The notes beneath the pieces were generated by a model. It was given only the letters and a program-made list of their open reading frames with translations, was not told the origin of the DNA and made no database searches. From positions 4,616,501 through 4,680,500 of the forward strand of contig NC_089442.1 in assembly GCF_026210795.1 (NCBI RefSeq): a stretch of 64,000 bases of DNA, given 5' to 3'. Positions 4,894 to 49,105 of the stretch are shown in pieces. The translations under genes and the position numbers were made by a program. Position 1 is the stretch's first letter, and each line of letters opens with the position of its first letter. Origin of the DNA: Rhizophagus irregularis. Lineage: Eukaryota; Glomeromycota; Glomeromycetes; Glomerales; Glomeraceae.

Positions 4894-5130
4894 AAGAATC
4901 TTATATAGTTGTATCGTCGAGGTCGTCTTATAACTGTACTTTTAATTCGCTATAATAATGAGAATCATAAAAGTCAAGTCGAAAGAGTGTTAATTAAACA
5001 TGCATTTATGTATTATCTGTATTATCAAACTTTTCTGGTAAATAAACTAAAATTAACTTGGATCTATTTATAATGATAAAAATATGAAAAGCTATCACCG
5101 TGATAGGATTGTGATAGTTTGTAAAGGAGA

Positions 5131-5560
5131 TATTGTGTCACGTCAGGAAGTTGTACAAACCTCAAGTCAAGATCCAAAGATTATACAGTTTGTAAAGAAA
5201 TATTTTGTCACGTCAGGAAATTGTACAAGTCAAGATCAAATTATACGGTTTGTAAAGAAGATATTGTGTCACGTCAGGAAATTGTACAAACCTCAAGTCA
5301 AGATCCAAAAATTATACGGTTTGTAAAGAAATATTTTGTCACGTCAGGAAATTGTACAAGTCAAGATCAAATTATACGGTTTGTAAAGAAATATTGTGTC
5401 ACGTCAGGAAATTGTACAAACCTCAAGTCAAGATCCAAAAATTATACGGTTTGTAAAGAAATATTGTATCGCGACAGGAAATTGTACAAGTCAAGATCAA
5501 ATTATACGGTTTGTAAAGAAATAAATATTTTGTCACGTCAGGAAATGGTACACTTGATGG
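5131..5560. repeat. Minisatellite of alternating 70- and 60-bp units
   Basis: The motif GTCACGTCAGGAAATTGTAC recurs at 5137, 5207, 5268, 5338 and 5398, in degraded form at about 5468 and again at 5532. The spacings are 70, 61, 70, 60, 70 and 64. The long unit has an extra CCTCAA-type insert before GTCAAGATC and the short unit lacks it, so the true period is a dimer of about 130 bp. Open frames across it (5084-5326 and 5221-5571) merely read the repeat and are not called as genes. Confidence 0.8.
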
Positions 5561-8586: not shown

Positions 8587-8594
8587 TATATAAG
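8587..8594 (+). promoter_or_regulatory. TATA-like core promoter of first surface-protein gene
   Basis: TATATAAG lies 70 bp before the preferred ATG at 8657 and is followed by an ACTGAAAACG block. The two downstream paralogues have the same arrangement (TATATAAA then TGASTTGAAA) 70-80 bp before their starts. That conservation in otherwise diverged flanks supports a core promoter. Confidence 0.45.
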
Positions 8595-8656
8595 CAGACT
8601 GAAAACGAAAAAATTCATGTAGCTCTTATATGATAAAAAAATTTTCTGTATTCAAT

Positions 8657-9771
8657 ATGCCTTATGCTGGATTTAAATATAAACTTGTATTTATTGTAGT
8701 ACTTGTTGCAATCTTTGTTACGATTAATTTTGCGTATAAACTAAAAGATACAACAGGCATGCTTCGAAAAAGACAAGGCCCTGAACCAAAGGGTCCTGAG
8801 CCAAAGGGTCCTGAGCCAAAGAATCCTGAGCCAAAGGGTCCTGAACCAAAGAATCCTGAACCAAAGAATCCTGAACCAAAGGATCCTGAACCAAAGAATC
8901 CTGAACCAAAGGATCCTGGACCAAAGGATCCTGGACCAAAGGATCCTGGACCAAAGGATCCTGGACCAAAGGATCCTGGACCAAAGGATCCTGGACCAAA
9001 GGATCCTGGACCAAAGGATCCTGGACCAAAGGATCCTGGACCAAAGGATCCTGAACCAAAGGATCCTGGACCAAAGGATCCTGAACCAAAGGATCCTGGA
9101 CCAAAGGATCCTGAACCAAATATTCCTCCAAAGGATCCCGAACCAAATATTCCTCCAAAGGATCCCGAACCAAATATTCCTCCAAAGGATCCCGAACCAA
9201 ATATTCCTCCAAAGGATCCTGAACCAAAGATTCCTCCAAAGGATCCTGAACCAAAGATTCCTCCAAAGGATCCTGAACCAAAGATTCCTCCAAAGGATCC
9301 TGAACCAAAGATTCCTCCAAAGGATCCTGAACCAAAGATTCCTCCAAAGAATCCCGAACCAAAGGGCGGTGCTCCTGATCCCAAGAATGGAGAACCGGGT
9401 AACACAAATAATATTGTATAGTAAATGTTGAAATTATATATTCAAGATGAAATAATTAAATTTTCCTCTTTTTAGGAAAATGTAAATTGAAAAAGAGACA
9501 AGAAGAAGGTGGATGCGAAGGTGGTGATGGTGGTAATGGTAATAATACTCCGGTTCCTAGTAAAAGTAAAATAGATCCATCTGCAACTTGCGCTTCTCCT
9601 AATGATGACAGATGCAAAGCTCCACCGGGAATGTAAGTACAGTTTTATAATTTAATATAAAAAAAAAATTTTTTTTCCGAGAGTACCAACTAAATACTCT
9701 ACGCAACTGTAGTCCTCCAAAAATTTCAACATCTATAGAAACAACGATAGAAACGATATCACAAACTCCGG

Positions 9772-9829
<58 letters not shown>

Positions 9830-10181
9830 TGATGGTAATAATAAAAATGATGGTAATAACAACGTTCATAATAATAATGAACAACACTCGAAAAATAAAA
9901 TAACTCATTGGACAACAACCACGACAACACTTACATTATATTTTGCTGGTTATACTACAACAATTACAACAACAAACTCTAAGGGAGAAATTACATCCTT
10001 CGCGACATACATTCCTCCATCAACCGTACTAGTGGTGAAAACGGTTGCCCTCAAAGCGATAGAAGAAACAACTTTCGAATCCGCAACAATTTTACACGAT
10101 TTTAACAGCCATGGATTATGGGGTATTACAATGAGTTTAGTTATAGTCTCCGCAACGTTAGTTATTATGGTTCTTGTGTAA
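8657..10181 (+). CDS. Repeat-rich secreted/GPI-type surface protein 1 (3 exons)
   Basis: Exons are 8657-9398, 9476-9632 and 9713-10181, giving about 455 aa. An ATG at 8630 would add 9 residues, but it sits only 43 bp after the TATA and the paralogues align at 8657. Order: short basic N-terminus (PYAGFKYK), hydrophobic leader, KR dibasic site at residues 38-39, then about 200 residues of DPGPK/DPEPK pentads and IPPKDPEP decads. A short Cys/Gly segment with a second KKRQ follows, then a CX7C motif (TCASPNDDRCKAPPG) and an Asn run encoded by about 18 pure AAT codons. Last come the conserved module ITHWTTTTTTLTLYFAG and a C-terminal hydrophobic tail suited to GPI attachment. The first intron (GTAACA donor, phase 1) is absent from the paralogues; the second (phase 2, after APPG) is shared. 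Surface or wall location is inferred; the function is unknown. Confidence 0.75.
9770..9826 (+). repeat. Pure AAT microsatellite coding poly-Asn
   Basis: An uninterrupted AAT run inside exon 3 of the first surface-protein gene encodes Asn. Its purity implies recent slippage and probable length variation between strains or nuclei. Confidence 0.85.
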
Positions 10182-12172
10182 TATACTGTAATTAAGGAAT
10201 GTTTAAAAACATAATTATATAATAATACTGTAATATAATGTTATATCCGACGATAAATTGTAAATAAAGAGGACAATTGTACAAAATGGAATGTAATATT
10301 GTGCAGATAGTAATAAAAAATTTTTAAATTATTCTATTAACCAAATAATCAAATTATAAATTAAAAATAATTATTTGCGTGTCTGGGTTGAATTTCCTTT
10401 AGTAAATCATAAAGAAAGAAAAAATTTTCTTCATAAATTCATAAAGAGAGAAAATTTTGTGCAAGGTTGTCAAAAAATGTTTTTATTTACCGTATTTACT
10501 ACAAATAAAGTACTGTAGACAAGTTCAGTACTCGAAGTATAGTGCAGCTGGTTTCTTCCTTTTTATGGTAACAAACAAATAAGTGATCAGATCGAGTTTT
10601 AGCTAAAAGAATCAAATGACATTTTCTTCCATTTGGATTGATAATCTCATATCGGAGATTGGGCCCTAATTGTTTCCAAAATTATTAATATATGATCTGG
10701 TCAAAAAATACTTTATTATACTTATTCAAATATGTAGATCGCGTCATATATTGAGGTCAATTGTATGTATCAAATCATATGACTGTCCCTTTGATATACC
10801 CTAAAATTATGTTTTATAAACAAGTAATAAACAAGTGCCGAAGTGCATAGAGAAAAGATTCGAATATCTAATTTTAGTTTAAATATTAATATTGTTTGTT
10901 ATATACTTTGCTGGTATATGGTTGACAGTTTTTAACACTGCATCTACCAATTATTTTTCGTCAAAATAAATTAGATATAAAAAAATTGTCGCACAATTTT
11001 ATTTTAAACTCATGTGAAATTTAATTTGTTTACCGGGTTTCGAACTCTATTTTTATATTAACTATCCTTTTTTGTTTAGGCCTTTAAAATCATCTTAAAT
11101 TTAGAAATGGGCTTTTTCAGTGTTACATTCATGAGGTAATTATTATGTTGTACAACCATTATTGAATGATTTTTGATGATAGAATATTAATAGCTTACCC
11201 GGTGTAATAAGTCAGTCTGTTTTTATTCATGTATTTCTCTCCTTTGTAAGATGTTGTTACGCATTCCTGCGATTATATCTCAAAGCTTCAAAAATGCGAT
11301 GGGATGGATAAGTGGCTTTATTTGTGAAAATAGAACGTAGATCATGAAACTGTATAATGAAACATCGATATATGTTAACATATATACGAGTATTATATAG
11401 GCTGAATAAAGAGAGAGTTCTTTACAAAAATGCAAAAGCTCTTCATTTCTATTGGGGTTAAAAAGGGGGATTTCTTTGAATGACTCAAGTTTCGCAAACT
11501 TTTGTTTCAGTTTGGGATTATTGTTATCGAAAGAATTGAAGATGGCGGATATTTCTATTTCTGATTATTTAATGAAACTATAAATGACAAAGAATTTATA
11601 GGAATAATATGAAAACAGCTATTGATCAACAATCCAATTCATTTCAATAAAAAAAAATGCACCCTAATGTAAGATTCTAAGAATTTAGATGTAAGATATT
11701 AATAAAAAATATAATAGAACTTGATGTATAACCTGATTTTTATTAGTTTTTGACACCTTTTTAGGATGATTTTCTTAATAAATATTCATTTTTACTTTTC
11801 CCACAAGAACAAATGAATTGACTTGAAGATATTGGGGGTTTATTAATTTATTTTTAAACCTTTTTAAGAAATTCCAGCCCGCCTTTTTCACAAAAGTAAA
11901 TTAGTACCTTAATATAAATAAAAAATTTTCTTATAAACTTTAATTTTACAAAAAGGTAAAGTCAAAAAAATATATATTTTGAAACTTTTTTATATTTAGA
12001 AAAAATTTTTTTCTGTGTTACAGTTTGATTATATATACATGGTCAAAAATCCTTTACTTGAGTAATTAAATTTTACCGATTATTTCATTTTCTATTCTTT
12101 TCTAAAAATAGACTGAATTATATAAAAAAAAAATATTTTTTTTTTTTTTAAAAAAAACAACAAAAGATCAAA
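10182..12172. other. Intergenic DNA between surface-protein genes 1 and 2
   Basis: This is about 2 kb without a supported gene. It probably holds the 3' UTR of gene 1 and the upstream region of gene 2. Gene-2 proximal sequence (12120-12172) is poly-A/poly-T rich before the TATA. Confidence 0.5.
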
Positions 12173-12180
12173 TATATAAA
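12173..12180 (+). promoter_or_regulatory. TATA-like core promoter of second surface-protein gene
   Basis: TATATAAA is followed directly by TGAGTTGAAA and lies 80 bp before the ATG at 12253. It matches the element upstream of the third gene (TATATAAATGACTTGAAA). Confidence 0.5.
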
Positions 12181-12252
12181 TGAGTTGAAATCATATTAAT
12201 TAATATATGGAATAATCACCTAAAAAAAAATCTATTTTATAATATATTAAAC

Positions 12253-15200
12253 ATGCCTCGTGTCGGGTTTAAATTTAAACATATTAAGCACACAATTGTA
12301 CTCATTTTAGTACTAAGTGTAATATTATTTATTATCGTCAATTTTGCTCCAACTAATGATGGAATAAAAAATCCGACGGGCAGCATTCTTCAAAAAAGAG
12401 CTCCCCAAGGAGAACCAAAAAAAGACCCACCAAAAGACGAACCAAAAAAAGACCCACCAAAAGACGAACCAAAAAAAGACCCACCAAAAGACGAACCAAA
12501 AAAGGATCCCGAACCGAAGGAAGAAAAGAAACCTGATCCAGAACCTAAAGAAGAAAAGAAACCTGATCCAGAACCGAAGGAAGAAAAGAAACCTGATCCA
12601 GAACCTAAAGAAGAAAAGAAACCTGATCCAGAACCGAAGGAAGAAAAAAAACCTAAACCAGAACCAAAAGAAGAAAAGAAACCTGATCCAGAACCTAAAG
12701 AAGAAAAGAAACCCGATCCAGAGCCGAAGAAAGATCCACCAAAAGATCCTGAACCGAAGAAAGATCCACCAAATGATCCAGAGCCGAAGAAAGATCCACC
12801 AAAAGATCCTGAACCGAAGAAAGATCCACCAAAGGATCCTGAACCGAAGAAAGATCCACCAAATGATCCTGAACCGAAGAAAGATCCACCAAAGGATCCT
12901 GAACCGAAGAAAGATCCACCAAATGATCCTGAACCGAAGAAAGATCCACCAAAGGATCCTGAACCGAAGAAAGATCCACCAAATGATCCTGAACCGAAGA
13001 AAGATCCACCAAAGGATCCTGAACCGAAGAAAGATCCACCAAATGATCCTGAACCGAAGAAAACAGATCTACCAAAAGATCCTGAACCGAAGAAAGATCC
13101 ACCAAAGGATCCTGAACCGAAGAAAGATCCACCAAATGATCCTGAACCGAAGAAAGATCCACCAAATGATCCTGAACCGAAGAAAACAGATCTACCAAAA
13201 GATCCCGAACCGAAGGAACCGGAAGCACCAAAAGATAACGATGGTGGCGATGCACCAAAAGATAATGGGGATGCACCAAAAGATGGCGGTACACCGAACC
13301 CAGCTGCACCTGCACCAAAAGGTGGCGATGCACCAAAAGACGGTGGAGCACCAAAGGATGGCGAAGCACCAAAAGGTGGCGAAGCACCAAAAGATGGTGG
13401 AGCACCAAAGGATGGCGAAGCACCAAAAGGTGGCAATGCACCAAAGGATGGCGATGCACCAAAAGGTGGCGATGCACCAAAAGACAGTGGAGCACCAAAG
13501 GATGGCGAAGCACCAAAAGGTGGCGATGCACCAAAAGATGGTGGAGCACCAAAGGATGGCGAAGCACCAAAAGGTGGAGATGTACCAAAAGATGGTGGTG
13601 CACCAAAGGATGGCGATGCACCAAAAGATGGTGGTGCACCAAAAGACGGAGATGCACCAAAAGGCGGCGATGCACCAAAGGATGGCGATGCACCAAAAGA
13701 TGGCGGTACACCGAACCCAGCTGCACCTGCACCAAAAGATGGCGGAGCACCAAAAGACGGTGAAGCACCAAAAGACGGCGAAGCACCAAAAGACGGCGAA
13801 GCACCAAAAGACGGTGAAGCACCAAAAGATGGCGGAGCACCGAACCCAGCTGCACCTGCACCAAAAGGTGGCGAAGCACCAAAAGATGGTGGAGCACCAA
13901 AAGACGGCGAAGCACCAAAAGATGGCGGAGCACCAAAAGACGGTGAAGCACCAAAAGACGGCGAAGCACCAAAAGATGGCGGAGCACCAAAAGACGGTGA
14001 AGCACCAAAAGATGGCGGAGCACCAAAAGACGGCGAAGCACCAAAAGACGGCGAAGCACCAAAAGACGGTGAAGCACCAAAAGATGGCGGAGCACCGAAC
14101 CCAGCTGCACCTGCACCAAAAGGTGGCGAAGCACCAAAAGATGGTGGAGCACCAAAAGACGGCGAAGCACCAAAAGATGGCGAAGCACCAAAAGACGGTG
14201 AAGCACCAAAAGATGGCGGAGCACCAAAAGACGGTGAAGTACCAAAAGATGGCGGAGCACCAAAAGACGGTGAAGCACCAAAAGATGGCGGAGCACCGAA
14301 CCCAGCTGCACCTGCACCAAAAGGTGGCGAAGCACCAAAAGACGGCGAAGCACCAAAAGATGGTGAAGCACCAAAAGACGGCGAAGCACCAAAAGATGGC
14401 GGAGCACCAAAAGACGGCGAAGCACCAAAAGATGGTGGAGCACCAAAAGACGGCGAAGCACCAAAAGATGGCGGTACACCGAACCCAGCTGCACCTGCAC
14501 CAAAAGGTGGTGGAGCACCAAAAGACGGCGAAGCGCCAAAAGATGACGGAGCACCAAAAGATGGCGGAGCACCAAAAGATGGCGATGCAAATAACACACC
14601 AAAGAAATCACCACTTGACTTACCGGTTGTTCCTACAAAAATTGATCCAACTTCAACTTGCGCTTCTCCTAATGATGACAAATGCAAACCTCCACCAGGA
14701 TTGTAAGTATATGTTTTAAAGTATAATAATTTATCGAATTTTTTTGTGAGAATAATGAAATTCTTTTACTTGCAATTGTAGTACTCCAATCGTTAAAACA
14801 ACTACACAAGAAGAAGTAGAAACGATAACACCAGCTCCAGATAACCCAACACCAGCTCCAAATAACCCAAATAACCCAACATCAGCTCCAAATAATCCAG
14901 ATAACGATAAGAATAAAGATAATAATAATAATAACGATAATAACAATAATGGTAACAACAATAACGGTAATAATGGTAAAAATGGTGGTAACGATAATGA
15001 TGGTAACGATGTTAATAACAATAAAAATAACAACAATAACAACAACAATAACAACAACAATAACAACAACAATAACAACAACAATAACGACAACAATAAC
15101 GACAACAATAACAAAAATAATAACGAGAAAAATAACAATGAGAAAAACAAAATAACCCAATATACAACTACCACAACAACACTTACATTATACTTTGCCG

Positions 15201-15439
15201 GCTATACAACTGAAATAACGACAACAAATTCTAAAGGTGCGATTACATCCTTCTCGACATACATACCTCCATCCACTGTACTTGTGGTAAAAAAAATTGC
15301 TGTCACTGCGCCCCCGATTGAAATAGGCATTTCGAAATCTACAACAACTTTACACGATTTTAATAGTCGCGGTTTATTTGGTGTTACAATGAGTTTAGCT
15401 ATAGTTATTGCAACTTTAGTTTTTATGATTTTCGCGTAA
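12253..15439 (+). CDS. Repeat-rich secreted/GPI-type surface protein 2 (2 exons)
   Basis: Exons 12253-14702 and 14782-15439 (GTAAGT donor, phase 2) give 1035 aa, the largest of the three paralogues. After a basic N-terminus and hydrophobic leader comes LQKR at about residues 46-49, a Kex2-type site. Three repeat blocks follow: KKDPPKDEP and EEKKPDPEPK decads, then KKDPPKDPEP/KKDPPNDPEP decads, then about 450 residues of APKDGG/APKDGE hexads punctuated by PNPAAPAPK. The CX7C motif (TCASPNDDKCKPPPG) sits at the exon end. Exon 2 carries Pro/Asn-rich sequence, a long AAC/AAT Asn tract with Lys, Glu and Asp interruptions, the conserved TTTTTTLTLYFAGYTTEITT module and a hydrophobic C-terminus. The repeats are highly charged and proline-rich, suggesting an extended polyproline-type stalk. 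The large antisense frames opposite are artefacts of the repeats. Function unknown. Confidence 0.8.
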
Positions 15440-16687
15440 TTCAATTAAAAGTAAGAATATATCGAATATATTATCATTTGTATAATAAATATAATAACTA
15501 ATTTGTATAATAATAATGTAAAAATAGATATATTAGTAATAAAGTTAATAAAAGGTTATAGATAAGAACTAATGTGTGATGTTGACAATGCAAACAAATT
15601 TCGGCATTTCGGCATTTCAGAATCCTTGAAAATCGAAATCATAAACCTGTAATACCGTACTCATATAGATAATCTTTATTTAACCGAATATTAACTTAAA
15701 CGTGTGATATGATGCGATTAATATATTTATTAATTAATAACGATTCTCAAATTAACGTTAAACTGATTTTCGTTCACTAAACCCAACTTTCTAAAACCTT
15801 TTTTTAAAGCTGAGTCTTAAGGAAGCTCGCAGTCATTTGATTGCTTAATAAGTTCAATAAATTATTTCACTATATCACGGACCACTCATAGCATTTATTC
15901 ATTCATATTTTAAAACAATTGTATGCAATGTGGTACAAAAACAGCACATAATAAGCACATTAAATAAATTCGTGGTGATTTATATATTAAATGACGAAAA
16001 TTTCGTAACTTCCCTAAAAAAAAAAGAAGAAGAAAAAAATATTTTCAAAAATCCGCAATAATAATAATATTTGAGTAACAAAATAAAATGGAATTATTTC
16101 TTAAATGATTTACGATATTGATGCAATTCATTGTCAATAATATATAATAAAAATTTGATGTTTGTGTTAATGTTTATTATAATAATTTAAATGATTTAAA
16201 AATAATATTAATTTATCATTGGATAAATTTAAAAAAAGATTCCTCAAATAAGATCAAAACCGGTTTTTTATTAACTTTTTATGGATATAATTTCTCCCTG
16301 CAAAGACTATTTAGGAAAGTTTTAATTAGATCCTAAATTATTTATTGATTTCTTGAACTTTTTATTTTCAGTAATAATTGCTTTTTAAATATAAATATTT
16401 ATAATATATAATAAATTTTAAAATATGACCAATTTACCTAAAATTAAAGTAAACATCATTAAAATTATTAAAGAGAATTTGAAACTTAATGACATGCAAT
16501 ATTTCTTGTGTAAATTCGTTTCGCATATGAAGTTTTAGTTGTGTAACAATAATTGTTCGTAGTTTCCCTAAAGATCTCACACAATAATTACACAATATCT
16601 TAACAAAGAATTCATCAACAACAAAAGATATATTATTACAGTTTATGTAACAACCTCCTTTGTGTCAAAAAAAATTTTTTTTTTGAA
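15440..16687. other. Intergenic DNA between surface-protein genes 2 and 3
   Basis: This is AT-rich with no supported gene. It is expected to hold the 3' UTR of gene 2 and upstream control sequence of gene 3. Confidence 0.5.
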
Positions 16688-16695
16688 TATATAAA
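16688..16695 (+). promoter_or_regulatory. TATA-like core promoter of third surface-protein gene
   Basis: TATATAAA followed by TGACTTGAAAACG lies 70 bp before the ATG at 16758 and 79 bp before the alternative ATG at 16767. It is nearly identical to the gene-2 element. Confidence 0.5.
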
Positions 16696-16757
16696 TGACT
16701 TGAAAACGTATTTAAAATAATAAAAAAAAATATTCATAAAACTAACCCCTTTTAAAA

Positions 16758-18548
16758 TTGTTCAATATGTCTTATGTTGGATTTAAATATAAACATACAC
16801 TTGTAATTATTATATTACTTGTTGTATTACTTATTACTGTTAATTTTGTCACTCCGACTTACCAAATCGAGAATAATCTTCAAAAACGACAAGACCCACC
16901 TAAGAATGACGCTCCTAAAAATGATCCACCTAAGAATGACGCTCCTAAAAATGATCCGCCTAAAAACGACCCACCTAAAAACGATCCTCCAGCTCCAAAA
17001 GAAGATCCACCTAAAAACGATCCTCCAGCTCCAAAAGAAGATCCACCTAAAAACGACCCACCTAAAAACGATCCCCCAGCTCCAAAAGAAGATCCACCTA
17101 AAAACGATCCTCCAGCTCCAGAACCACCAAAAAATGATCCCCCACCCAAAAATGATCCTCCACCACCTAATAATCCTGATAACAATAATAATAATGATAA
17201 TCCTAATAATAATAATAATCCTCCAAATAATCCCAATCCAAATCAGCAAAATCCAAATCCAAACCCTAATCCAAATAACCCCCAGCCTAATCCAAATCCT
17301 AATCCAAATCCTAATCCAAATCCTAATCCAAATAACCCCCAGCCTAATCCAAATCCTAATCCAAACCCTAATCCAAATAACCCCCAGCCTAATCCAAATG
17401 ATCCAAATCCCCAGCAAAATCCTAATCCAAATGACCCAAATAATCCCAAGCAAAATCCTAATCCAAATGACCCAAATAATCCCCAGCAAAATCCTAATCC
17501 AAATGACCCAAATAATCCCCAGCAAAATCCTAATCCAAATGACCCAAATAATCCCAAGCAAAATCCTAATCCAAATGATCCAAATAATCCCAAGCAAAAT
17601 CCTAATCCAAATGATCCAAATAATCCCAAGCAAAATCCTAATCCAAATGATCCAAATAATCCCAAGCAAAATCCTAATCCAAATGATCCAAATAATCCCA
17701 AGCAAAATCCTAATCCAAATGATCCAAATCCCCAGCAAAATCCTAATCCAAATGATCCAAATAATCCCAAGCAAAATCCTAATCCAAATGATCCAAATAA
17801 TCCCAAGCAAAATCCTAATCCAAATGATCCAAATAATCCTCAGCAAAATCCTAATCCAAATGATCCAAATAATCCCCAGAAACCAAATGATGCCGATGCG
17901 AATTCGGGAGAAACCGGAAAGACTGGAAAGACTGGAAAGTCTGGAGGAGATCCAGTCATTAATCCTGATCCAAGCGATGCTATAAAGACAATAAAAACAA
18001 TTAATCCAACTGCAACTTGTTCTTCTCCTAATGATAACAGATGTAAAGCTCCGCCGGGAGTGTAAGTATATAATTTAATAAAATAATTATTTTTATATTT
18101 AAAACGAAACCCTAAATATATTTTTATTGTTATTTTGAATCTTAGTACACCAAAACTTGAAACATCCACACAACAAGAAATAGAAACGATAACACCGACA
18201 CCAACTCCAAATAACAAAAATAATAATAATAATAATAATAATGATGCGAAAAACAAAATAACTCATTGGACAACAACCACGACAACACTTACATTATACT
18301 TTGCCGGTTTTACAAAAACAATTACAACAACAAACGCTCAAGGACAGCCTACAACTTTCGCGACATATATTCCTCCATCTACTGTACTTGTAGTGAAGAA
18401 AGTTGTCGCCACTGCAGCTGGGCTTGATGATGGAACATTTGAAAGTGATTCTACTACAATTTCACAAGATCTTAGTCATGGTTTATGGGGTATTATAATG
18501 AGTTTGGTTGTATGCACTTGTACATTAATTTTTATGGTAATCGCGTAA
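16758..18548 (+). CDS. Repeat-rich secreted/GPI-type surface protein 3 (2 exons)
   Basis: Exons 16758-18061 and 18146-18548 (phase 2) give 568 aa; the paralogue-matched Met is at 16767. The leader MSYVGFKYKHT plus about 20 hydrophobic residues is followed by LQKRQ, with KR at residues 43-44. The repeat region begins with KNDPPAPKEDPP-type units, then Asn-rich sequence, then about 20 copies of NPNPNDPNNPKQ-like 12-residue units made of 36-bp repeats. The CX7C motif reads TCSSPNDNRCKAPPG. Exon 2 has a short Asn run, the conserved module ITHWTTTTTTLTLYFAGF and a hydrophobic tail ending in IFMVIA. Ends match genes 1 and 2 while the repeats are unrelated in sequence, so the repeat arrays arose or were replaced after duplication. 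Secretion, Kex2 cleavage and GPI anchoring are inferences from motifs. Confidence 0.8.
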
Positions 18549-28557: not shown

Positions 28558-31500
28558 ATGTCTTTGGCCGAAACTGCCGTACCATTTGGCCAAAATGAGA
28601 CACTTATTTCATCCATTCGTAATATTCTAAAGGTTTGTCTTTGGAAAAGTCATGTCACTTTTTATATTTAAAACACGAATTTAATAAATTTTATTAGGAT
28701 TATCATCCCGTGAGCATATTTAAGGAATTTCTTCAAAATGGTGATATAAATTTATTAATATTATTTCGAGTTCTTGAATTATCATTCTCAATATCTTATC
28801 TTTAAAAACAAATGCTTTAGCCGATGATGCCGGAGCTACTCGGTTTCATGTAATCCTTGACTACCGTTCACATCCTACAAACTCTCTAATTAATCCGGAA
28901 ATGAGAGATTGGCAAGGCCCAGCTATCTTGATATTCAATAATGGGATATTTGAGGATGTAGATTTCCAATCGCTCATGAATATACGTGTTGGCGGAAGGC
29001 AAGGTGATAGAACAATGATCGGGAAATATGGATTGGGCTTTAACTCGTGTTACCATTTTACCGATGTTCCAAGCCTTATCAGTCGTGATTCCATTGTGTT
29101 TCTGGATCCCCAAGAAACATACCTGGGACAACGTGGTATCAAAAGCCCTTTTCCCAGGAATGGCATTCGTCGGTACTCTGAAAGGGACCAATTGGTTCCT
29201 TTTGAAAATATTGAAGGCATCGATTTTCGATCAACTTTTAATGGGTCACTTTTTCGAATACCACTTCGAAGGAGCCGTAGTGATATATCCAATAGGGTTT
29301 TTACTATAGAAGAAGTCAGAAGTTTATTTTCCAATATTAAAACAACTATATTATCTGAATTTTTATTTCTTCGAAACATCGAAAAAATTGAAATGTCCTA
29401 CATACCCCACGTACGTATCGGAGCTTCATTTCAAGTAAGACCTTTATGGAAAGCTGAAATAATAGATTTGGACGAAGTAAGAGATCAAAGAAGGCAACGA
29501 TTAAATAATGATGAAATTCGAATTTTCCAAATGAGGATCAAACTAATTGACAGTGAACAAATTCAAATTAATAACGAACGCAACGAACGTTGGATTATTG
29601 TAATTGGTGCTCAAGAAAATCCTGAAGAACAAGAAGAATATGCTGATCAACATCGATTATGCGTGTTAGGAGGTGTCGCTGCACGACTTGAAACCTCAGT
29701 GCGACCGAATTTTTTTGTGGGTAAAATGCATTCTTTTCTTTCATTGCCCGACGTCACGTACTTGCCAGTTCATCTTAGCGGAACCTGGGCTTTGAGTTCG
29801 GACCGTTCAAGGCTTTTAATCGATAATGGGGAATGGGATTCAGATTATCAGAAAATCATTTGGAATAGACATATTTTGCTTGATTTTTTACCAAAACTTT
29901 ATTGCAAACTTTTAAATAATATAATCGAATTATATAATAATAATGAAATTGATCGCGAAATTCATCCCGTCTCAAAGTTCTGGCCGTTCCCACCTATCAC
30001 TCATAATTGTCCAAAGTACGCAGTTGAATACGGTCTTAAAGTACTTCATAATATATTACAAAATGAAGATACCTTCCAATTGATTGATAATGACGATGAC
30101 GCTAATGAGAAAGTAGACATTCTTTTCAATCTCTTACCACGTGATCAGGTTAAGGATGTCCATACCTTACTACAAAATAATTGGGATGGAATTGGTAACT
30201 TCCTTTAAATTTAAATTTATATATAATCTTTGCAATTAAATTTATTTGTTTTTTTTTTTGAATTTCTTTCTGTCTTTTGTAGGGGTGAGATCGAATCCTG
30301 ACCTTATGTCACTGGTCAGATCATTGCCTATTTGGAAAACACTCTCAGATCCGTTAAATGAAGATTTTGAACCGCCTTTAAAAGCAGCATTACACGGACA
30401 CATTTTACCCAGAAAAATGCCGCATTATCGAACAAGAGATTCCAGAATTTTTTTAGATGCTAGTATTGATATTACTCGTCGAGTTCTTACTGAACTCAAT
30501 GTTCCCTTGCGAAATATCCGCGATTATACATTCGAGGACGTTGAATTCCCTACTGTCGAATGTGATAATTATTATCATCATTTCTTAAGAAACATACTCA
30601 GTACCAATACAATCACTGGAATAGTTCAAGGTTTACGACCTAGGCGTTGTTTTCCTACATCTTCTCGTAGATTAAAGAGAATTAACGACTTATATGATCA
30701 AAACAACGAAGTCTTTAGGATCGTGTTTGGAAATACGGATGTCTTCCTTCATCCTGACTTTTCAGATTTCTCATTGACATTGTCAAGTATTGGATTTAAT
30801 AATACAATCGATCAAAGGACATTTATCAAGTGTGCAGAGAAAATTGAGGAATTACAAACTGATACGAGCCCTCCATCTGACTTACGATACAGAGGTTTTA
30901 TATTAGTTGATTATTTATATAAAAATATTGAAGAATTTGATTTAGAGGCCATTGAAAGAATTCCGTTTGTTCCAATTGCTAGAAGTTTGGATTTACCCTA
31001 CAGTCAACACTATAATCATACTCAAATATTAGATAGTTTTAGGAATATAATTATTCCCAGATATAAAGAAGTTGCATGGAGTAGAAAGTGCTTGATTGCG
31101 GAAGATGTAATACCGCCGCAAACCATACTCCAAGATTATCCTTCACTTGGTAAACCAAGTGCTCCTATTGTAGTAGTACATCTCCGTTTCTTACATAGAA
31201 CTCTCCGAGATGAATGGAGGAATAATTGGGCTGGAGCATTTAAACATAACATTGAAGAGATTTATAAATGGCTTGAAGGGGAATGTCTAAATGGAGAACT
31301 TAACTTATTAGATTACATTAGAGAAGAAGATAGGTTGTTTCTCAATATTAATAGAGATCAAGATCCATTTGATCTTCGCAACTGGGTTTCTGCAGATGAT
31401 TTGATTCTGAATGCTGCACCGGAGGAGGAGAGATTTGTAAAGTCAAGTCTTGCTACATATCCTAATATGCTCAGAAGTGTTGGTGTCCGAGAAGTTACAC

Positions 31501-32087
31501 GGCCAAATTTTGAAATTAATGTTAGAAGACATAACCAGTCAAATTTTGGTCAAAGCAACATGTTTAGATATTTCTTGGATCAAAATTTCCCCTTGCACGA
31601 TGTCACTTTTATAATGAATAACGATAGGATAAAGACAAGCCGATTCGTACTCGCTGCAAGCTCTGAATTTTTCCGCGAGGAATTCGTTACAGGGAGATAT
31701 GCAGGACAAAGTCCGCCGATTACAATCAATATTAGGAACCTTGAACCAATTAGGGACATTAGATTCAATTCAATGCGCATTTTGTTACGCTACCTCTATG
31801 GCCAAAGTATTGATCATGCAATTCAAAATCGTCAAAGCTTAAATGGTGATGATGAAGAACATCATATTGTAGTGAATGATAGCAATAATTTAGTACTATA
31901 TAAAGATTTACTTAAGATGGCAAATTATTTCGTGTTAAATCATTTGAAAGAGCTAATGGAGTTGAGACTTTCATATTTAGTTACAAGGTTGAACGTTCAA
32001 GAAATGAATAGGTTTGCATCAAGTTCAGGGGCCAATCAACTCAGAGGATTTTGTGAACGTTTTATCGAAACTAATGGTAGGTTGTAA
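28558..32087 (+). CDS. Sacsin-type ATPase domain protein with C-terminal BTB (4 exons)
   Basis: Exons 28558-28632, 28698-28740, 28821-30194 and 30283-32087 give 1098 aa with all phases consistent. The N-terminus matches the Hsp90-like ATPase module of sacsin repeats: GQNETLISSIRNILK, then KEFLQNADDAGATRFHV (residues 34-50) carrying the Glu and Asn/Asp of the Bergerat nucleotide fold, LIFNNGIFEDVDF (76-88) and GKYGLGFNSCYHFTDVPS (107-124). The middle, about residues 280-930, is a long sacsin-like body with no obvious second motif. At about 932-1040 lies a BTB/POZ domain (LHDVTFIMNNDRIKTSRFVL). Sacsin-type proteins are thought to be chaperone-like, and BTB domains often bridge to Cullin-3 ligases. 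A role joining folding and ubiquitination is an inference. Confidence 0.85.
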
Positions 32088-33970: not shown

Positions 33971-36945
33971 ATTCTTCTAATTGAAAGTAATGGCAATTTG
34001 TGTGGAAGTTTTTTTTGGAAATTTTTTTTTTTTTTGTTTTATCTCTTTTTTTTTTAAAAAAAAAAAAAGAAAAAAATTTTTTTTTTTTTTAGACCACAAT
34101 GAGAATTATCAGATGTTTATTTTCACCTGTGTAATATATATCTGCGAAAAAATTTCCTTCATTCAATATTACATACATACATATAAGATGAAAATCTCAT
34201 TTTTTATGAATTCGATGTAAAGAATGTTATAATTAGAATGGTACATGTATGTACTAAATCATAATCATTTTTTCCATGGGAATAAAAATTTTTTTTTTTA
34301 AAGTTTTTTCTGATTTTTAAAACAATTAGGTGTTACGACATTTTTTTTTTTTACAATGAATTATAAAAAAAAGTTGACTTTCATTCATTATTACATATTC
34401 CTTTAAATGGTCATGACTTTCATCCATAGTTTTTTGGGGGAAGAACGAGAAAGAAAAAAAAAACAGATTATCGCAAGAATAATAAATTTGATTTTTTTTT
34501 TCTTTTTCTCGAGAGAATAGTCCTAATTTATCATCATTGAAATATAATAATATTAATCGAATTTCGATAAAGATAGAACTTGAACTTTTTCGAAAATTTT
34601 CGAGGAGTTTTTTTTTTTCTGTCATACAACATTCAAATCAAAATCAAATGTTACATCCTCTTTCACATTCAATACATTTCAATTCAATTACATTCAATTC
34701 AATCAAAAGGTATTGTTTCTACTTTTGATTGCGATGAATAAAATCTTTTAAAAAAAAAATCACTTATGGTACAAACACGGGCCATCTTAATTGTTGTACG
34801 ATAAACGTGTTTAATTGTTTAACCGTTCGATATATATATATAATAAAAGAAAATCACGTGAAGAATTTTATTAACTAGAAATCAATAAATCCTAACTTTG
34901 GTAATTATAAAAAAAAAAGCCACAGATGATTTACTAAATTCATTTGGTCTTTTGAATCAGTTTTTTTTCATGCATATGATTACGACATCTTTATTATGGT
35001 TGCGCAAATTTACGAAGGAAATACGAACTAAAAATAATAAATAAATAAATATTTTCGGAAATTCTCGTATAAAATGTGCCGCACGGTTAACTCATAAACG
35101 ATTAACCTATAAACATACCCCAATTTATCAGACGTATTTTTCATTAATATTTTTCTTTATTTGTTTAAAACGTATCATAATTTAAAAATGTATTATAGAA
35201 ATAAATAAAGAAAAGGAAATAATAATGAAAATTTTAATCCATAAATTGTAAAGTGGAAAATTTAAAAGTAATACAAATAGAAAAAAATCATGGAAAAATT
35301 TAAAAAAGATGCTCGATTAATAATTTTTTGATGTAATATTATTATTAATTTTAAGTGGCTGTAATATACATGAGAAATCGAGAAAATAAAAAATTTCGAG
35401 TATTAAAAGAAGGGGCATAAAAAATAACTAATCCATTTCTTGTTCAGTGATGATTCCGATTATTGGGACCTATTACCCACTGTTTCATTTACTTCCAATT
35501 TTGGTGTTGGCACATATTTTGGGTGTTGGCAACATTTCTTCTGACTTCACACTTTTGATGTATAACAGATAATAAATTAAATTAAATGATAGATTCGTCG
35601 ATTTTTAATTTGTGTAATAAATAATATTATTATCTCATTTATGCAAATCAAAATTCAAAAAATTAGCGTTAATCCATTTAATGTACATATATAGTAAATT
35701 ACGCGATTAATTAAAATGATTAAAATCGGTTAAATCGGTTATATAAATTATGATCCTTGAGTAATATTTATATTAATAATTTTGATATTCATTGTAAATA
35801 AGTAAATTTCAAATAAGAAAACAAATCGATTAAGTTTTTAATTTTTTTATTTTTTTTATTTTTTTTTATTTTTATTTTTTGATTACAAATTATTACAAAA
35901 TAAAAAAAAATATAAAAAAAACAACAAAATATTAAAAATTCCTTTTTTTTTTTCTAATCGTCAAGATCGTAAGAAAGCCAAAATACCATAAATTAATAAA
36001 AAAACATTATATTTTAATTAATTATTGCTTTTACATAATCAAATTATTATAATTATAATTATTAGGCTGAAAATCGGCCATTTCAAATTTGTGAAACAAT
36101 TATAAATGCAAATGACATAAAAAACGTGCCACCATTAATTCATATCCAAAATATCCAAAATTAATTAAAGAATATTAATTAATAAAAATAATAGATCATC
36201 GAATTGAATTCAATGATCTTCGGTACTCGAAAGCATAAAAAAAAACGCAACTTTTTTATTTTATTTTAATTAGTAACACAATACGTGGCTATCGGTCGAT
36301 TGAAATTTTTATGGGCGTTCCAAAAAAAAAAAATAAATTAATAAAAAAAATTGAATAAATCGTCATCGCCGTTAAATTTATTCGTTATCTTTACCCGATT
36401 TGGTTTATTTGTGTCAACAAAAATTTCGTAATTGGCAAAAGGAAAATTTTACAAATAAATAATTTCTTAACTTTAAAATTTGTTATTTTATTCGTTTATC
36501 AGATTACAATAAACTAAGCTACATTTGTTGCATTAAAAGAGATTTATGAGTACGGAGTAAAAAATCCATTGGCGTAATATATAAAAATGAACGCCTTATA
36601 TTTCTTTGATCATGGGAAGACTTTGTGTTCTTTGAAAAGATATAAAAACATAAAATAAATCACTTTGGATTTCGGATTCTTTGGAATTTGATGGAAGAAT
36701 TCAATAACTGACCTTTTCGCAAACCCTGGTGGTTTTATATAAAACCCTACTCTTTTTTTTTATTATTATTATTACTATTATTATTATCGAAAAAAAAAAA
36801 TATATATAAATATATACACGTTTATAGATCGTAGCTCTCCCTAATTAAATTATAGAAAATTCGTATCTTAGAGAGTAGCTAAAGAAAATCAAGGTTTCGA
36901 TCCTTTATACATTCTTTTATTATAATAATAATTTTTTTTTTTTTT
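33971..36945. other. AT-rich intergenic DNA
   Basis: No supported gene lies in about 3 kb. Frames at 33981-34220, 34326-34625 and 34537-34728 are built from homopolymer codons. The final 200 bp, with an ATATATAAATATATAC tract near 36802, probably hold the promoter of the F-box/kelch gene. Confidence 0.55.
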
Positions 36946-38275
36946 ATGATCTTTAGTCAAATGACCCAATTTTGTTTATTCAGACCACCCAAAGGTGGTT
37001 ATTTATCGTTTTTACCAAATGAGATTTTATATATCTTGTTGGATCAATTAGATGATAAAGATCAATATCATCTTTCTTTGACTTGCAAAAAGTTTTATCA
37101 TTTAGTAAGATTGAACTTATTTGGTATCGTGACACCAGTTTGGAAGGATGCGGAAGTTATCGGTTTGGAAAATTTATCCGCATCTTGTTATCGTGATGGT
37201 GTTGTCGTAAATAATTCCTTGTTCATACCAATTCTCGCAAAGAAGGAACCTTACTGTTTATCCATCAACTTAGTTCAAAAACCGTTGAAATTGATTCGAC
37301 ATCCAATTTTAATTGACTTTAATACCGAATCTTTTTATGAACCTTGTGAATTTATAGCAACCGCTGCTATCGGAAATCGTTTATATATATTTGGTGGTAA
37401 AAATTTATACTCAGGAGAAATTACGAACGCATTTTACGAATTAAATATAAATACTTTTGAATTAAAAAAGGTACATCAAAGTCATCATTTGCCTAAACCA
37501 AGAATGATGCACACGTTAAATTCGATCGATAATCACCGATTGGCGTTATTCGGTGGTCGCATGTGCATGAACGGTAATTAAACCCTGCTTATATGATTAT
37601 TACTTGCATACATAAAATGTATTTTGTGTTTATATTAATCTTACATATTTTTTTTTTTTTAATCTAATAATAATTTAAGGTAAATATTACGATTCAAAAG
37701 ATTTTGCAATTTATGATGTAAAGAAAAATTCATGGGAAGTTATAAATAACGAATCCGCATTCGTACCATCAAGAAGATCGAATCAATCTACAATGTTCTT
37801 TAATGATAAACTTTACATATATGGAGGACAACAAATAACCTCATCTTCTACATTGAATCGTATTCACGATGATCCTGATATATGGGAATATGATACATTG
37901 AAGCTTAATTGGAAAAGGTATTTGAATGGATTAACATTATCAGGATTATTATTACCAAAAAATTGTATTTCTACAAGTGGGGTAAATCCATCTAAAAGAT
38001 GTGGTGCAGCGATATTTCCGATACGAAAAAACATAGGAATTTTAGGAGGTATTGAAATGATGCAAATTAATGAAGAAATTCTTACATGGGGTCATATGAA
38101 AATTTTATCACCCATGAAACAAACTTGGGTTCAAGTTAAAGTTAAAGAAATGCCTCGAATTGAATGTGTAGCATTTTATGTCGAATATAAATTTGGAACA
38201 AAAGATATTTTCGTAGTCGGTAAAGATCAAAAAGAAGGAAAAATAATTACTGGATGGATTAAAGACGAACAATAA
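36946..38275 (+). CDS. F-box/kelch-repeat protein (2 exons)
   Basis: Exons 36946-37573 and 37680-38275 (GTAATT donor, phase 1) give 407 aa. An F-box sits near residues 19-55 (LPNEILYILLDQLDDKDQYH, then LTCKKFYHLV). Kelch-type blades follow: IGNRLYIFGGKN, HRLALFGGRM, DKLYIYGGQQ and KNIGILGGIE, each with the hydrophobic-GG signature and downstream Tyr/Trp positions (WEYDTLKLNW). F-box proteins dock on Skp1 in SCF ubiquitin ligases and kelch propellers bind substrates, so this is probably a substrate receptor; the target is unknown. A second Met at residue 6 is a possible alternative start. The number of recognisable blades (about four to five) suggests a complete or nearly complete propeller. 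Confidence 0.8.
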
Positions 38276-45136: not shown

Positions 45137-45778
45137 TTAATAGAAATCGTCATGAAAGAAATTCATATTCAAATCCTCATCTTCATAAATTGGAGTAGGA
45201 GTCCAATGGAATTCTTGCATTAAAAAGTTGTTAATTTCAATATCATCAAATTGAGGATTTTGAATTTGAGGCAGAAAGATATCGCATATATCGTGCCTAA
45301 TTGAAGGACAGATAGGTTCAAGATTGTAAGGATATTGAAGAAAAAATTCTGGTAATAGTTGAACAGATTCCTCCACGATAAAATTATTTGGCTGTTCTCT
45401 AATTGGTACTGATAGGTTTTGAATATCTGGTCGAATTGGTAAAATTGTACGCGGACCTTCCAATATTTGTGATCTTTCACGATAAACCTCTTTCACTCTC
45501 TTTGCAAAATCGCGATATTCGTTCTTTAATTCCTCCTTTTCAAATTTCCAAGCCTCTGATGCCCAACGCGATACTTCTGTCATTTTTGATGGTAATCCAT
45601 TTATCATGAGCACTTTATTATATACCTTACGATATATCATAAATGCATTAGAAGTTTTGCTACGTCCAGATCTTCTCGGTAAGAAATGGTTTGGGTTCAA
45701 CATCAACATACGAGGTGATGAGATAGATACTTTGGGCCGTTCACGTACGAGTGTTTGGAAAGATGCTTGTTGTGGCAT
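45137..45778 (-). CDS. HMG-box protein (MATA-HMG type)
   Basis: A single exon of 213 aa starts at ATG 45778. The HMG box occupies about residues 36-105: RRSGRSKTSNAFMIYRK, then INGLPSKMTEVSRWASEAWK and KEELKNEYRDFAKRVKEVY. The spacing fits the three-helix fold, with Asn-Ala-Phe-Met-Ile-Tyr at the start of helix 1 and the Trp pair of helix 2. Boxes of this type bind DNA in the minor groove; relatives are mating-type and sterility regulators, and arbuscular mycorrhizal fungi are known to carry large families of them. The C-terminal half is acidic and Pro/Asn-rich (PTPIYEDEDLNMNFFHDDFY), like an activation region. Whether it acts in mating identity cannot be told from sequence alone. Confidence 0.85.
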   Translation of the reverse strand: MPQQASFQTLVRERPKVSISSPRMLMLNPNHFLPRRSGRSKTSNAFMIYRKVYNKVLMINGLPSKMTEVSRWASEAWKFEKEELKNEYRDFAKRVKEVYRERSQILEGPRTILPIRPDIQNLSVPIREQPNNFIVEESVQLLPEFFLQYPYNLEPICPSIRHDICDIFLPQIQNPQFDDIEINNFLMQEFHWTPTPIYEDEDLNMNFFHDDFY

Positions 45779-48225
45779 TTTTTTTTGTTTATAGTTTTTT
45801 TTTTCTTTTTTTTTCTTTTTTTTAAAAAAAAAATAATTATTAAATTGATGAAAAATTGATAAAAAGTTGAGGGCTCTTTTATATTAAATTTTTTAATATT
45901 AAATCTTTAATCTCCGACGGAAATGTTTGTTAAAAAAGTGTTTAGAACAATTATGGTAAGATATGATGTCGGTCATATAAATATAAACAAGTAGCTCATA
46001 TAAATATATAAACAATGAAGAAGAAACATATTCTAAAAATATTGTTAAAGTCTTTCACACCTCTTCTTTTCACTACCAATTATAGATTCATCAGCCACTT
46101 AAATTTTCCACGTGATATGAGTACTTTAAAATGAGGGAATTTTATATTGACCTTGTTATCCAAAGGTGGATAGAAAATTATTATATAATTTACTTATATA
46201 TAAAAACTTTCACGAAAAAAAAAAAAAAAAACTTACACATAATTGTATGTAAATATGTAATGTGTAGATCTTAAATTCCGAAACATTTTGATCGTGACTT
46301 TTTTAACATAGCCAACGGTTATAACTTTCCGATTATTTATAAAGTTATATTATTTATAATATGTCGTAATCTTATAACCGGTTCTGGTTCAGTTACTGGT
46401 TCGGTCTTCGGTGATACTAAATGATAATGAAAGGATATAATAATTCATAACCGACTTTTAGTTTATACATGAAGAAAAATAAGAAATAAGAAGAGTTCAA
46501 ATATAACTTTCAAATTCCTATTTAATCAATTTGATACAATTTAGGGGGTAAAAACATTATTTAAGTAGATCGCGCTATCGTTATATGACTGATTATAATA
46601 ATAATAATAAGATTGTTTCTTGTAAATATTTCTGCACATTAAACACATGAAACTTAAAAAAAAAGTTTAAAGTAATATTATAAAGAAATAAAGAGTTTTT
46701 TTTTCCATGTTTTTAATTCTTACGTTTTTTCAATTTATTATTTAGGAAAAAATTTAAAAGAGGGCGTAGTAGCATATATAACAAAAATATAAAAATGATG
46801 ATCCAATTTTGGAATGATATTGACCAACCAATAGGAATCTAATAGGAATATCCTAACTGTATGACCACGAAAAAAAAAAAAACTTATACATTTCATTGAA
46901 TATATTTTTTTAGTTAATTTACAAAGTAGGTCCAAGAAATAATTTAATCTTTCTTGTACATCTTGTACATAAAATTTTTTTTTAGAATCCTTTTTTGGAT
47001 TTTTATTGATGACTGTAAACATCTACAAAGGACGCTCAAATCACATGACTTATGAATAAAAAAACCTGTTTTTCTAATTATTTATAAATGAATTTTCTTT
47101 CAAATGTATTAAATATATTCTTGTGTAAAGTGACACATCGTTACATTATTATTTTTAGTATCACACGGCTGTTTCTTAAAAAAAGAATTCGAAAGAATTC
47201 GATAAGAATTTGTAATATAAAATTATTTATTATTATGTGTATAAATTTATTTATTATTATAAAAAAAAAATTTTTTTTTTATATACATTATACAAAATGT
47301 ATTATTTTTATTTATTACATATAATTTTTATGCATATACATTGAACATATATATTTTATAATATCACTTTGTTTTTTTTTTAAGAAAAAAAATCATGATC
47401 TTGAAAAAATGTAATAACTTAATTTAACTTTAATTACTTTTAAATGATTTCCCCAATCTCTTGCCATTTATTGGCGTCTTTGTTTACGCGTAAATAAAAT
47501 ATAATAAATAATTTTATAGTTTCGTCTTGTAATATAGAAAAGACAATTTTTATCCATGTATAGATCATAGGACTTTGAAAGAAATATCAATGATTTGTAA
47601 CTAAATAAAGAGAAAAATGAAAAAAAAAATAGATGTAATTTATTGATTCAGAAGGAGACTTAAAATCCGATTAAAAGAACCAATCCTAATTCAAAGAAAA
47701 TTTTTCATGAATCTTTTTGGTTTTTTTTTAAAGAAAAAAGAATACAATTATTTTGAATGTTTTTTTTTTACTATTATGATTTCTTTTTATTAGATATTTT
47801 GGTGCAATTCATTGTAACTTAAAATGACATTTAATGTTATGATGTAAAAGAAAAGTGATATTAATAAGATTAAAAAGAAACAACGCGCCTTCCGCGTTCG
47901 TGCTTCTAGAAAAGCCCCATGCATAATCAGTTTGCACCAATCACTGATGGTGATCACCTTACCAGCCACATATTCTCTGTGGAAGTGGCGAGGGAAAGCG
48001 GCTTGAATCGGATCAAATTTGGATTTAAGTATCACACTAGCAATATATCATCGAATGAAATTCAACCTCGTATCATATTGTCTTTCTTTTGTTTCTTCTT
48101 TTATAGATTCACGGCTATTCGGATCATTGATCCGAATGTTGCAAAATCGTTGATCAGTTAAGTGGTTTAAGTAATATCATTTACGTCAGCTGGGTACCAT
48201 TAAAATTAATCCAATCGAGTTATTA
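45779..48225. other. Intergenic DNA with a few dubious frames
   Basis: No gene is supported with confidence. A minus-strand segment at about 47885-48035 reads as protein-like sequence (KSKFDPIQAAFPRHFHREYV) in an island richer in G and C than its surroundings. It lacks an ATG in a good position and ends in a low-complexity tail, so it may be a gene or transposon scrap. The plus frame 47919-48161 overlaps it. Confidence 0.4.
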
Positions 48226-49105
48226 TAAGCCGCAGTAGACAGATTGTTGTCACACAAGAGTTATTATAAACCGCAGTAGAATAGGAAGCTAACGTAAATG
48301 TGAAAACCTAACAATGGACTTTTTTTTTTTAGAACTCGAATTCAAAAATAAAATGCATAGTACTGGTCAAAACTACTGTATAACATATCACAGTCGGTAA
48401 AGTGCCGAAAGCTTTATTTCTTATACCGCAGTAGAATAGGAAGCTAACGTAAATGTGAAAACTTAACAATGAGCTTTTTTTTTTTTATAGAACAATTCGA
48501 ATTCAAAAATAAAATGCACAGTGCTGGTCAAAACTACTGTATAACATATCACAGTCGGTAAAGTGCCGAAAGCTTTATTTCTTGTGCCGCAGTATAATAG
48601 AAAGCTAAACCTAACAATGAACATTTTTTTCTAGAACAATTCGAATTCAAAAATAAAATGCATAGTACTGGTCGAAATTATAGTATAACATGTCACAGTC
48701 GGTAAAGAGCCGAAAGTATGCCGCCGTAGAATAGGAAGTTAACGTAAATGTGTGGACTTTTTTTTTTGGAACAATTCGATTCAAAAATAAAATGTATAGT
48801 ACTGGTCGAAATTACATATATAGTTTTGATTAGAACTACTTGGCACGGAGTTCAAAGCTACTTGTATAACATGTCACAGTCGGTAAAGAGCCGAAAGTAT
48901 GCCGCCGTAGAATAGGAAGTTAACGTAAATGTGTGGACTTTTTTTTTTTAGAACAATTCGATTCAAAAATAAAATGTATAGTACTGGTCGAAATTACATA
49001 TATAGTTTTGATTAGAACTACTTGGCACGGAGTTCAAAGCTACTTGTATAACATACAACAGTCGGTAAAAAGCCGAAAGCTTTATTTCTCATTTTTTTTT
49101 CTTTT
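48226..49105. repeat. Satellite-like array, units of 134-181 bp
   Basis: The motif CCGCAGTAGAATAGGAAG (or CCGCCGTAGAATAGG) recurs at 48271, 48426, 48587, 48721 and 48902, with a partial copy near 48231. Each unit continues with a T-run, AACAATTCGAATTCAAAAAT, ATGCATAGTACTGGTC, ACAGTCGGTAAAGTGCCGAA and often AGCTTTATTTCTT. The last two units share an extra 60-bp segment with TTGATTAGAACTACTTGGC. The frame 48933-49136 crosses the array and is not a gene. Confidence 0.8.

Follow-up and report, generated by a model that had tools for sequence, protein, structure and literature searches.

A family of predicted Kex2-processed, GPI-type surface proteins with variable repeat arrays and at least 15 members in Rhizophagus irregularis

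Results

The 64,000-nucleotide stretch of Rhizophagus irregularis DNA considered here (C14:4616501-4680500, hereafter the window) harbors three consecutive spliced genes on its plus strand, genes 1 to 3 (C14a to C14c; Table 1), which are part of a family with at least 15 members in this genome. It appears fairly likely that the members are surface proteins which are trimmed by a Kex2-type protease, are anchored by glycosylphosphatidylinositol (GPI) and display fast-changing, extended arrays, where we infer processing, anchoring and display. All three window genes encode a hydrophobic leader, an L(Q/R)KR site, a repeat array, a CX7C motif followed by a phase-2 intron, a threonine-rich module and an uncharged, hydrophobic C-terminal tail, and the array consists of different units in each gene, as determined by Tandem Repeats Finder. 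The spliced models thereby bear out a first-pass annotation of this DNA, which had proposed three neighboring plus-strand genes with these common ends and a distinct proline-rich array per gene; the KR, which had been placed 7-15 residues after the hydrophobic stretch, resides 11-15 residues past its end when counted on the spliced models. This shared layout is beyond chance: protein identity to the C-terminal module of gene 1 is 74% for the module of gene 2 and 70% for that of gene 3, the ratios of nonsynonymous to synonymous change (dN/dS) among the three genes are 0.24, 0.38 and 0.55, and the same module is found behind an intron at 12 further genomic places.

A search of the window's own genome (146.7 Mb, 32 contigs) with the C-terminal module of gene 1 yielded 15 matches, all of them stop-free and 14 at E <=1.9e-12. 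The copy on C26 scores E 0.31 against the gene 1 module and about E 3e-5 against the copy on C18, in both directions. The copies reside on C14 (three), C12 (four, 4836-4944 kb), C9 (four, 3730-3757 kb), C31, C1, C18 and C26, so that the window trio is one of three clusters, the members of each being all located on one strand. Searches with three divergent members (8, 13 and 14 matches) revealed no place beyond the 15, which are to be taken as a lower bound. All 15 module models begin with a hydrophobic leader; intracellular proteins carrying the module without a leader, which the first-pass annotation had named as speaking against its reading, were not among the models from this genome. Searches with the leader led to four further places that have the leader but lack the threonine-rich module, on C22, C11 (two) and C25 (L064-L067). 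These genes share a KRQ-type start, and no anchor exon was found in the 420-500 bases read behind the last coding stretch. In two of them (L065 and L067) the final segment is C..RKR..CGAWFF, in which a further Kex2-type site is enclosed by two cysteines; the leader of the C25 gene (L067) is not in the same frame as its array.

In Pfam, neither the six exon translations of genes 1 to 3 (best E 0.0018, below cut-off and in a low-complexity part) nor the 15 C-terminal exons gave a match above the cut-off, and a PDB profile search returned chance-level matches alone (best E 0.33). Pattern scans for the module gave 52 matches in viral contigs and 34 in prokaryote genomes, both non-fungal collections, of which none was confirmed as a relative, and Rfam had nothing in the window.

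Thirteen of the 15 members possess the Kex2-type site, its lysine being located at residues 31-48 of the spliced models. Position P4 is occupied by leucine or isoleucine in 11 of these and by phenylalanine in two (LRKR, LQKR and LQKR in genes 1 to 3), and P1' by glutamine in 12, the sole deviating member being gene 2 with alanine. Kex2 is reported to prefer KR with leucine or another aliphatic residue at P4 (PMC6258133). The CX7C motif, of the type CxSxxDxxC or CTTSxDxxC, is located just before the intron in 13 members. At the opposite end, the last 18 residues are free of charge in all 15 proteins, and a candidate anchor residue is located 24-25 residues from the C-terminal end, which is asparagine in 14 members and serine in gene 3. 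Leader and tail match the form of endoplasmic reticulum (ER) and GPI signals, both these matches and the candidate omega site being assigned by inspection and not by a prediction program. Taken together, the recurrence of the KR site, of the glutamine behind it and of the charge-free tail throughout the family strengthens the secretory, Kex2 and GPI reading of the first-pass annotation, whose interpretation as a whole is partly supported.

Several points weigh against the proposed processing and anchoring. Two members, C9a and C9b, are devoid of the KR site, and another two, C18 and C26, of the CX7C motif. By the -3/-1 rule, the cleavage sites of the signal peptides look weak (NFA/NFV), so that the leader might instead be an uncleaved signal anchor which is later cut off by Kex2. 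The avoidance of KR behind the first site was considered as additional evidence for Kex2 cleavage and was rejected: the 6395 residues behind the KR in 13 members include 734 lysines and 10 arginines, and [KR]R was observed once where 0.96 is expected from composition, so that the scarcity of arginine fully explains the count. One genomic match to the P domain of proprotein convertases (C32) speaks in favor of such processing, but it is partial, covering 57/86 positions with one stop in the matched frame. AlphaFold predictions for the threonine-rich module of the three window sequences were uninformative (predicted local distance difference test score 43.5) and were not used. Finally, C1 and C9d, the sole pair with low dS, show a module dN/dS of 1.3, on few changes.

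The weak -3/-1 residues and the long hydrophobic leader would also fit membrane proteins without GPI. In such proteins only Kex2 would remove the leader, which would otherwise persist as a signal anchor, and the tail would be a normal transmembrane helix at the C-terminus. However, in all 15 members the hydrophobic stretch ends the tail with no basic residues after it, as is typical of GPI signals, and exon matches to Gaa1, a subunit of the GPI transamidase, are present at one genomic place (C9). Membrane proteins of this type are regarded as decidedly unlikely.

Gene 1 is the only one of the 15 members with a second [KR]R behind the first. As the extra intron of this gene is spliced out, the second site, KKR followed by glutamine, comes to lie just behind the array. 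A short relic on C8 (1099450-1099603; L063:1950-2110) is 89% identical to the array end, extra intron and KKRQ of gene 1 and then runs into a stop. The second site bears on the possibility that the proteins are precursors of a released signal, that is, that the short propeptide freed by Kex2, or the entire array of gene 1 after cleavage on either side of it, acts on plant or fungus and the anchored stub is a by-product. The array of gene 1 is indeed flanked by RKR and KKR, each followed by glutamine, and the four leader-sharing relatives mentioned above have neither the module nor an anchor exon in the bases read. Similarly, Kex2-cut repeat proteins are reported from R. irregularis (PMC6339444), and Rbt1, a GPI wall protein of Candida albicans, is described to free a Kex2 peptide (PMC12578311). 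In contrast, the propeptide sequence varies among the members, the second site is confined to a single gene, and the cysteines on either side of it could keep both chains joined. We consider a released signal unlikely and favor an anchored array trimmed at its N-terminus.

Between the common ends, the middle part of the proteins consists of proline-rich or Asn/Gly arrays, of cysteine-rich stretches, or of almost nothing. Frequent units of individual members are PKDPGPKDP, APKDG(E), NPNPNDPNN, GGGPKGGGDNGG, APAGGDGK and PPEK, and further PAPAP, PPPKTPPP, NGNNEGNN, PPVPPTTPI, KVPP and KDAP. An APKD unit is common to C18 and C26; between most paralogues the unit sequences are not conserved. The C31 gene (L055) has the ends but no array, with 16 residues from KR to CX7C, and C9a-d and C1 possess cysteine-rich stretches near the N-terminus which precede or replace the arrays. 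The N-terminal cysteine-rich parts of four of these five genes (C1, C9a, C9b and C9c) gave no Pfam match. In the C9 cluster (3729-3758 kb; L057-L060), the cysteine-rich stretches are of the CxxCxxxCC type in three of the four genes.

C1, which carries SPPPP-like units, and C9d have near-identical ends (module dS 0.06, dN 0.08) and are recent copies. Their dominant units are nevertheless different, PPPKTPPP and KVPP, respectively, and the two arrays share a similar KEPP-type part. For eight of the nine pairs tested, module dN/dS ranges from 0.19 to 0.55, which shows that purifying selection predominates at the ends. Only 2 of the 12 inner branches of the module tree are well supported, and with a tree so poorly resolved, events of cargo exchange cannot be counted on it.

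It might be argued that the arrays are neutral low-complexity filler that arose by slippage, and that the ends alone matter. The lack of conserved units between most paralogues, the array-free C31 gene and the cysteine-rich stretches in place of or ahead of arrays on C9 and C1 agree with such filler, and fungal low-complexity regions are reported to be generally depleted of arginine and lysine (PMC11878562), so that low arginine alone is weak evidence. On the other hand, the cores remain in frame without a stop for up to 753 codons (gene 2), and their composition favors Pro, Lys, Asp/Glu, Gly and Asn. With lysine far exceeding arginine in the counts given above, this composition looks constrained, and neutral filler is considered improbable.

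The three window genes were spliced at GT-AG introns. The start ATG of gene 1 was picked by likeness to its paralogues; another in-frame ATG is located at 8630. Directly behind the CX7C region an intron was modelled in all 15 module copies, in phase 2 each, partly with a filter for this phase. When no filter was applied, phase-2 models alone were obtained for seven genes solved (genes 1 and 2, L053, L054, L057, L058 and L060), and L052, L055 and L059 also allowed models with another donor or phase; later modelling kept phase 2 only, L061 excepted. A GTAAGT donor at the exon end (GTAAGA in L061) gave a phase-2 model in the 13 genes tried, and L054 has GTGAGT. For L055 and L058 the nearer of two possible acceptors was taken. 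All intron models were derived from genomic sequence alone.

Table 1. Positions of the three genes and their predicted features in the window
Feature	Position	Strand	Details
Gene 1 (C14a)	8657..10181	+	exons 8657-9398, 9476-9632, 9713-10181; 455 aa; spliced model
Gene 1 leader and propeptide	8657..8773	+	ends in LRKR (KR 8768-8773), then Gln
Gene 1 array	8774..9398	+	PKDPGPKDP-type, then IPPKDPEPK-type units; Tandem Repeats Finder, 8780-9365
Gene 1 extra intron	9399..9475	+	GT..AG; spliced model
Gene 1 second Kex2-type site	9493..9498	+	KKR, then Q; between Cys250 and Cys261
Gene 1 CX7C	9589..9615	+	CASPNDDRC
Gene 1 conserved intron	9633..9712	+	phase 2
Gene 1 Thr-rich module	9894..10100	+	alignments
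Gene 1 GPI-type hydrophobic tail	10101..10178	+	
Gene 2 (C14b)	12253..15439	+	exons 12253-14702, 14782-15439; 1035 aa; spliced model
Gene 2 KR	12394..12399	+	LQKR, then A
Gene 2 arrays	12412..14589	+	EPKKDPPK and EEKKPDPEPK blocks, then APKDGE/APKDGG blocks; Tandem Repeats Finder
Gene 2 CX7C	14659..14685	+	CASPNDDKC
Gene 2 conserved intron	14703..14781	+	phase 2
Gene 2 Thr-rich module and GPI-type tail	15146..15436	+	
Gene 3 (C14c)	16767..18548	+	exons 16767-18061, 18146-18548; 565 aa; spliced model
Gene 3 KR	16884..16889	+	LQKR, then Q
Gene 3 arrays	16893..17876	+	PPKND/PAPKED blocks, then QNPNPNDPNNPK units; Tandem Repeats Finder
Gene 3 CX7C	18018..18044	+	CSSPNDNRC
Gene 3 conserved intron	18062..18145	+	phase 2
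Gene 3 Thr-rich module and GPI-type tail	18252..18545	+	

Elsewhere in the window, positions 28778-32084, 36883-38272 and 45140-45883 (-) hold, in this order, a sacsin domain followed by a BTB domain, an F-box/Kelch combination and an HMG-box-like frame, the latter slightly under the Pfam cut-off. Tandem Repeats Finder also detected tandem arrays at 5117-5552 and 48270-49079, their periods being 131 and 161-182 bp.

Discussion

According to the reading that we favor, the leader would bring the chain into the secretory pathway, where a Kex2-type convertase would cleave behind the conserved [LIF]xKR, and the exposed N-terminal glutamine would probably cyclise to pyroglutamate. The hydrophobic tail would be replaced by a GPI anchor, leaving the mature chain on the plasma membrane or the hyphal wall. 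As judged from order and composition, the threonine-rich module may be wall-proximal and is probably O-mannosylated, and the array, presumably extended, hydrophilic and disordered, would point outward at the free N-terminus; the CX7C motif may form a small disulfide loop. Sequence comparison shows the exchangeable part to be the array, which is altered by tandem duplication, or the cysteine-rich stretch in the C9/C1 branch. Most likely, the proteins would self-associate into a hydrated coat or matrix that covers hyphae or spores and differs in its physical properties from paralogue to paralogue. A synthetic repeat peptide of RiAGL3, (APKDG)6, is reported from earlier work to self-assemble in vitro, and the arabinogalactan-protein-like (AGL) proteins of Rhizophagus, to which RiAGL3 belongs, to form polyproline II helices in vitro (PMC8786786). 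It might further be speculated that the family is a system of modular display, in which repeat or cysteine-rich cargo, soluble versions included, is rapidly exchanged and is displayed between one leader/Kex2 cassette and one anchor cassette. In some members, a Kex2 nick within a disulfide-closed loop (gene 1; C..RKR..C on C11 and C25) would leave the cargo tethered through a reducible bond up to its release at the root interface. We regard this extension as very unlikely as it stands.

The closest comparison is with the AGLs (Schultz, Wu and Baumann 2022, PMC8786786). Like these, the window genes are clustered paralogues with fixed ends and a variable middle of hydrophilic, presumably disordered P/G/A/K/D tandem repeats, and they occur in the same fungus. 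AGLs have predicted ER and GPI signals (PMC8786786), a form that leaders and tails of the window genes resemble by inspection. That the window genes are AGLs is nevertheless highly improbable. The published Rhizophagus cluster comprises four genes in 10.7 kb (PMC8786786), and this layout agrees with a locus on C7 that extends from 4807.3 to at least 4817.6 kb, with an (APKDG)n match at 4807351 and with genes that carry APADGK repeats, or ones similar to these, near 4811.1, 4813.4 and 4817.3 kb, the first of which was read in part. The APKDG units of gene 2 match the RiAGL3 repeat; identity of gene 2 with RiAGL3 is ruled out by the position of the (APKDG)n match on C7. None of six module or leader searches matched the C7 genes, and leader and tail of AGLs differ from those of the window family. 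AGLs are described to have a single intron next to the ER signal with a first exon of 65-79 nt (PMC8786786), whereas the first exons in the window measure 742, 2450 and 1295 nt and the conserved intron follows the CX7C motif. Mature AGLs are shorter than 200 aa, and the words cysteine and threonine are absent from the main text of that paper (PMC8786786). More than 50% of the mature protein, and mostly more than 70% in RiAGLs, consists of proline, glycine and alanine (PMC8786786); the window cores fall short of this, the values among their six commonest residues being P35 G10 in gene 1, P24 G13 A11 in gene 2 and P33 N32 A2 in gene 3, with alanine in gene 1 and glycine in gene 3 outside these six. 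Near the AGL cluster, at C7:4838.4-4840.3 kb (L069:1886-3814), a 642-codon open frame is built like a single-pass membrane protein: besides a leader and a long array of APADGK units, it encodes a hydrophobic segment in its interior and a tail that looks cytosolic and contains NQGQEF repeats.

Kex2-processed repeat proteins (KEPs; Le Marquer 2019, PMC6339444) and SP7-like proteins (PMC5293756) of the same fungus also have a leader followed by KR sites and repeats. However, in KEPs a Kex2 site is described between all of the near-identical repeats (PMC6339444), whereas the window family has one site ahead of the array and none within it. Three tested features set the predicted proteins of the window family apart from AGLs, and by the arrangement of their putative processing sites they are not KEPs. 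Plant extensins and proline-rich proteins likewise contain proline-rich arrays that are likely extended; in contrast, the window genes are fungal and encode a GPI-type tail. By description, the family may also be likened to Ywp1 and Rbt1 of C. albicans, anchored wall proteins that are cut by Kex2 near the N-terminus (PMC6258133, PMC12578311), Ywp1 losing a propeptide in this way (PMC6258133); repeat arrays of the present kind are not mentioned in the excerpted text of these two sources. On C19 (L070:1570-2934), a secreted-looking protein has two similar cysteine-containing stretches around GKAPENGKDGK-type repeats, and its ends show no visible likeness to the window family.

The first-pass annotation had considered these genes a candidate for an undescribed system. 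With the AGLs, surface proteins of arbuscular mycorrhizal (AM) fungi that have tandem repeats and are of GPI type have already been described in general, and the window genes appear to represent a new family of that kind. No description of the family was found among the open-access papers listed, a search which left out supplementary tables, most subscription journals and preprints. In 2022, AGLs were, to the knowledge of the authors of that study, the only GPI-anchored proteins described in AM fungi, and genes with such repeats were stated to be difficult to assemble and annotate (PMC8786786). A survey of the RiSP secretome from 2017 required the absence of transmembrane domains and, in its excerpted text, does not discuss GPI proteins (PMC5293756). 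This omission and the difficulties of assembly and annotation may explain why no report of the family was found.

AM fungi are in touch with most land plants, and a second, larger and more variable family of this kind whose ends are conserved may provide tags, antibodies and primers for work on the hyphal surface. If the modular display outlined above held true, isolate-specific arrays might contribute to strain identity or to host-specific contact. The family would also offer a testable candidate for differences between isolates.

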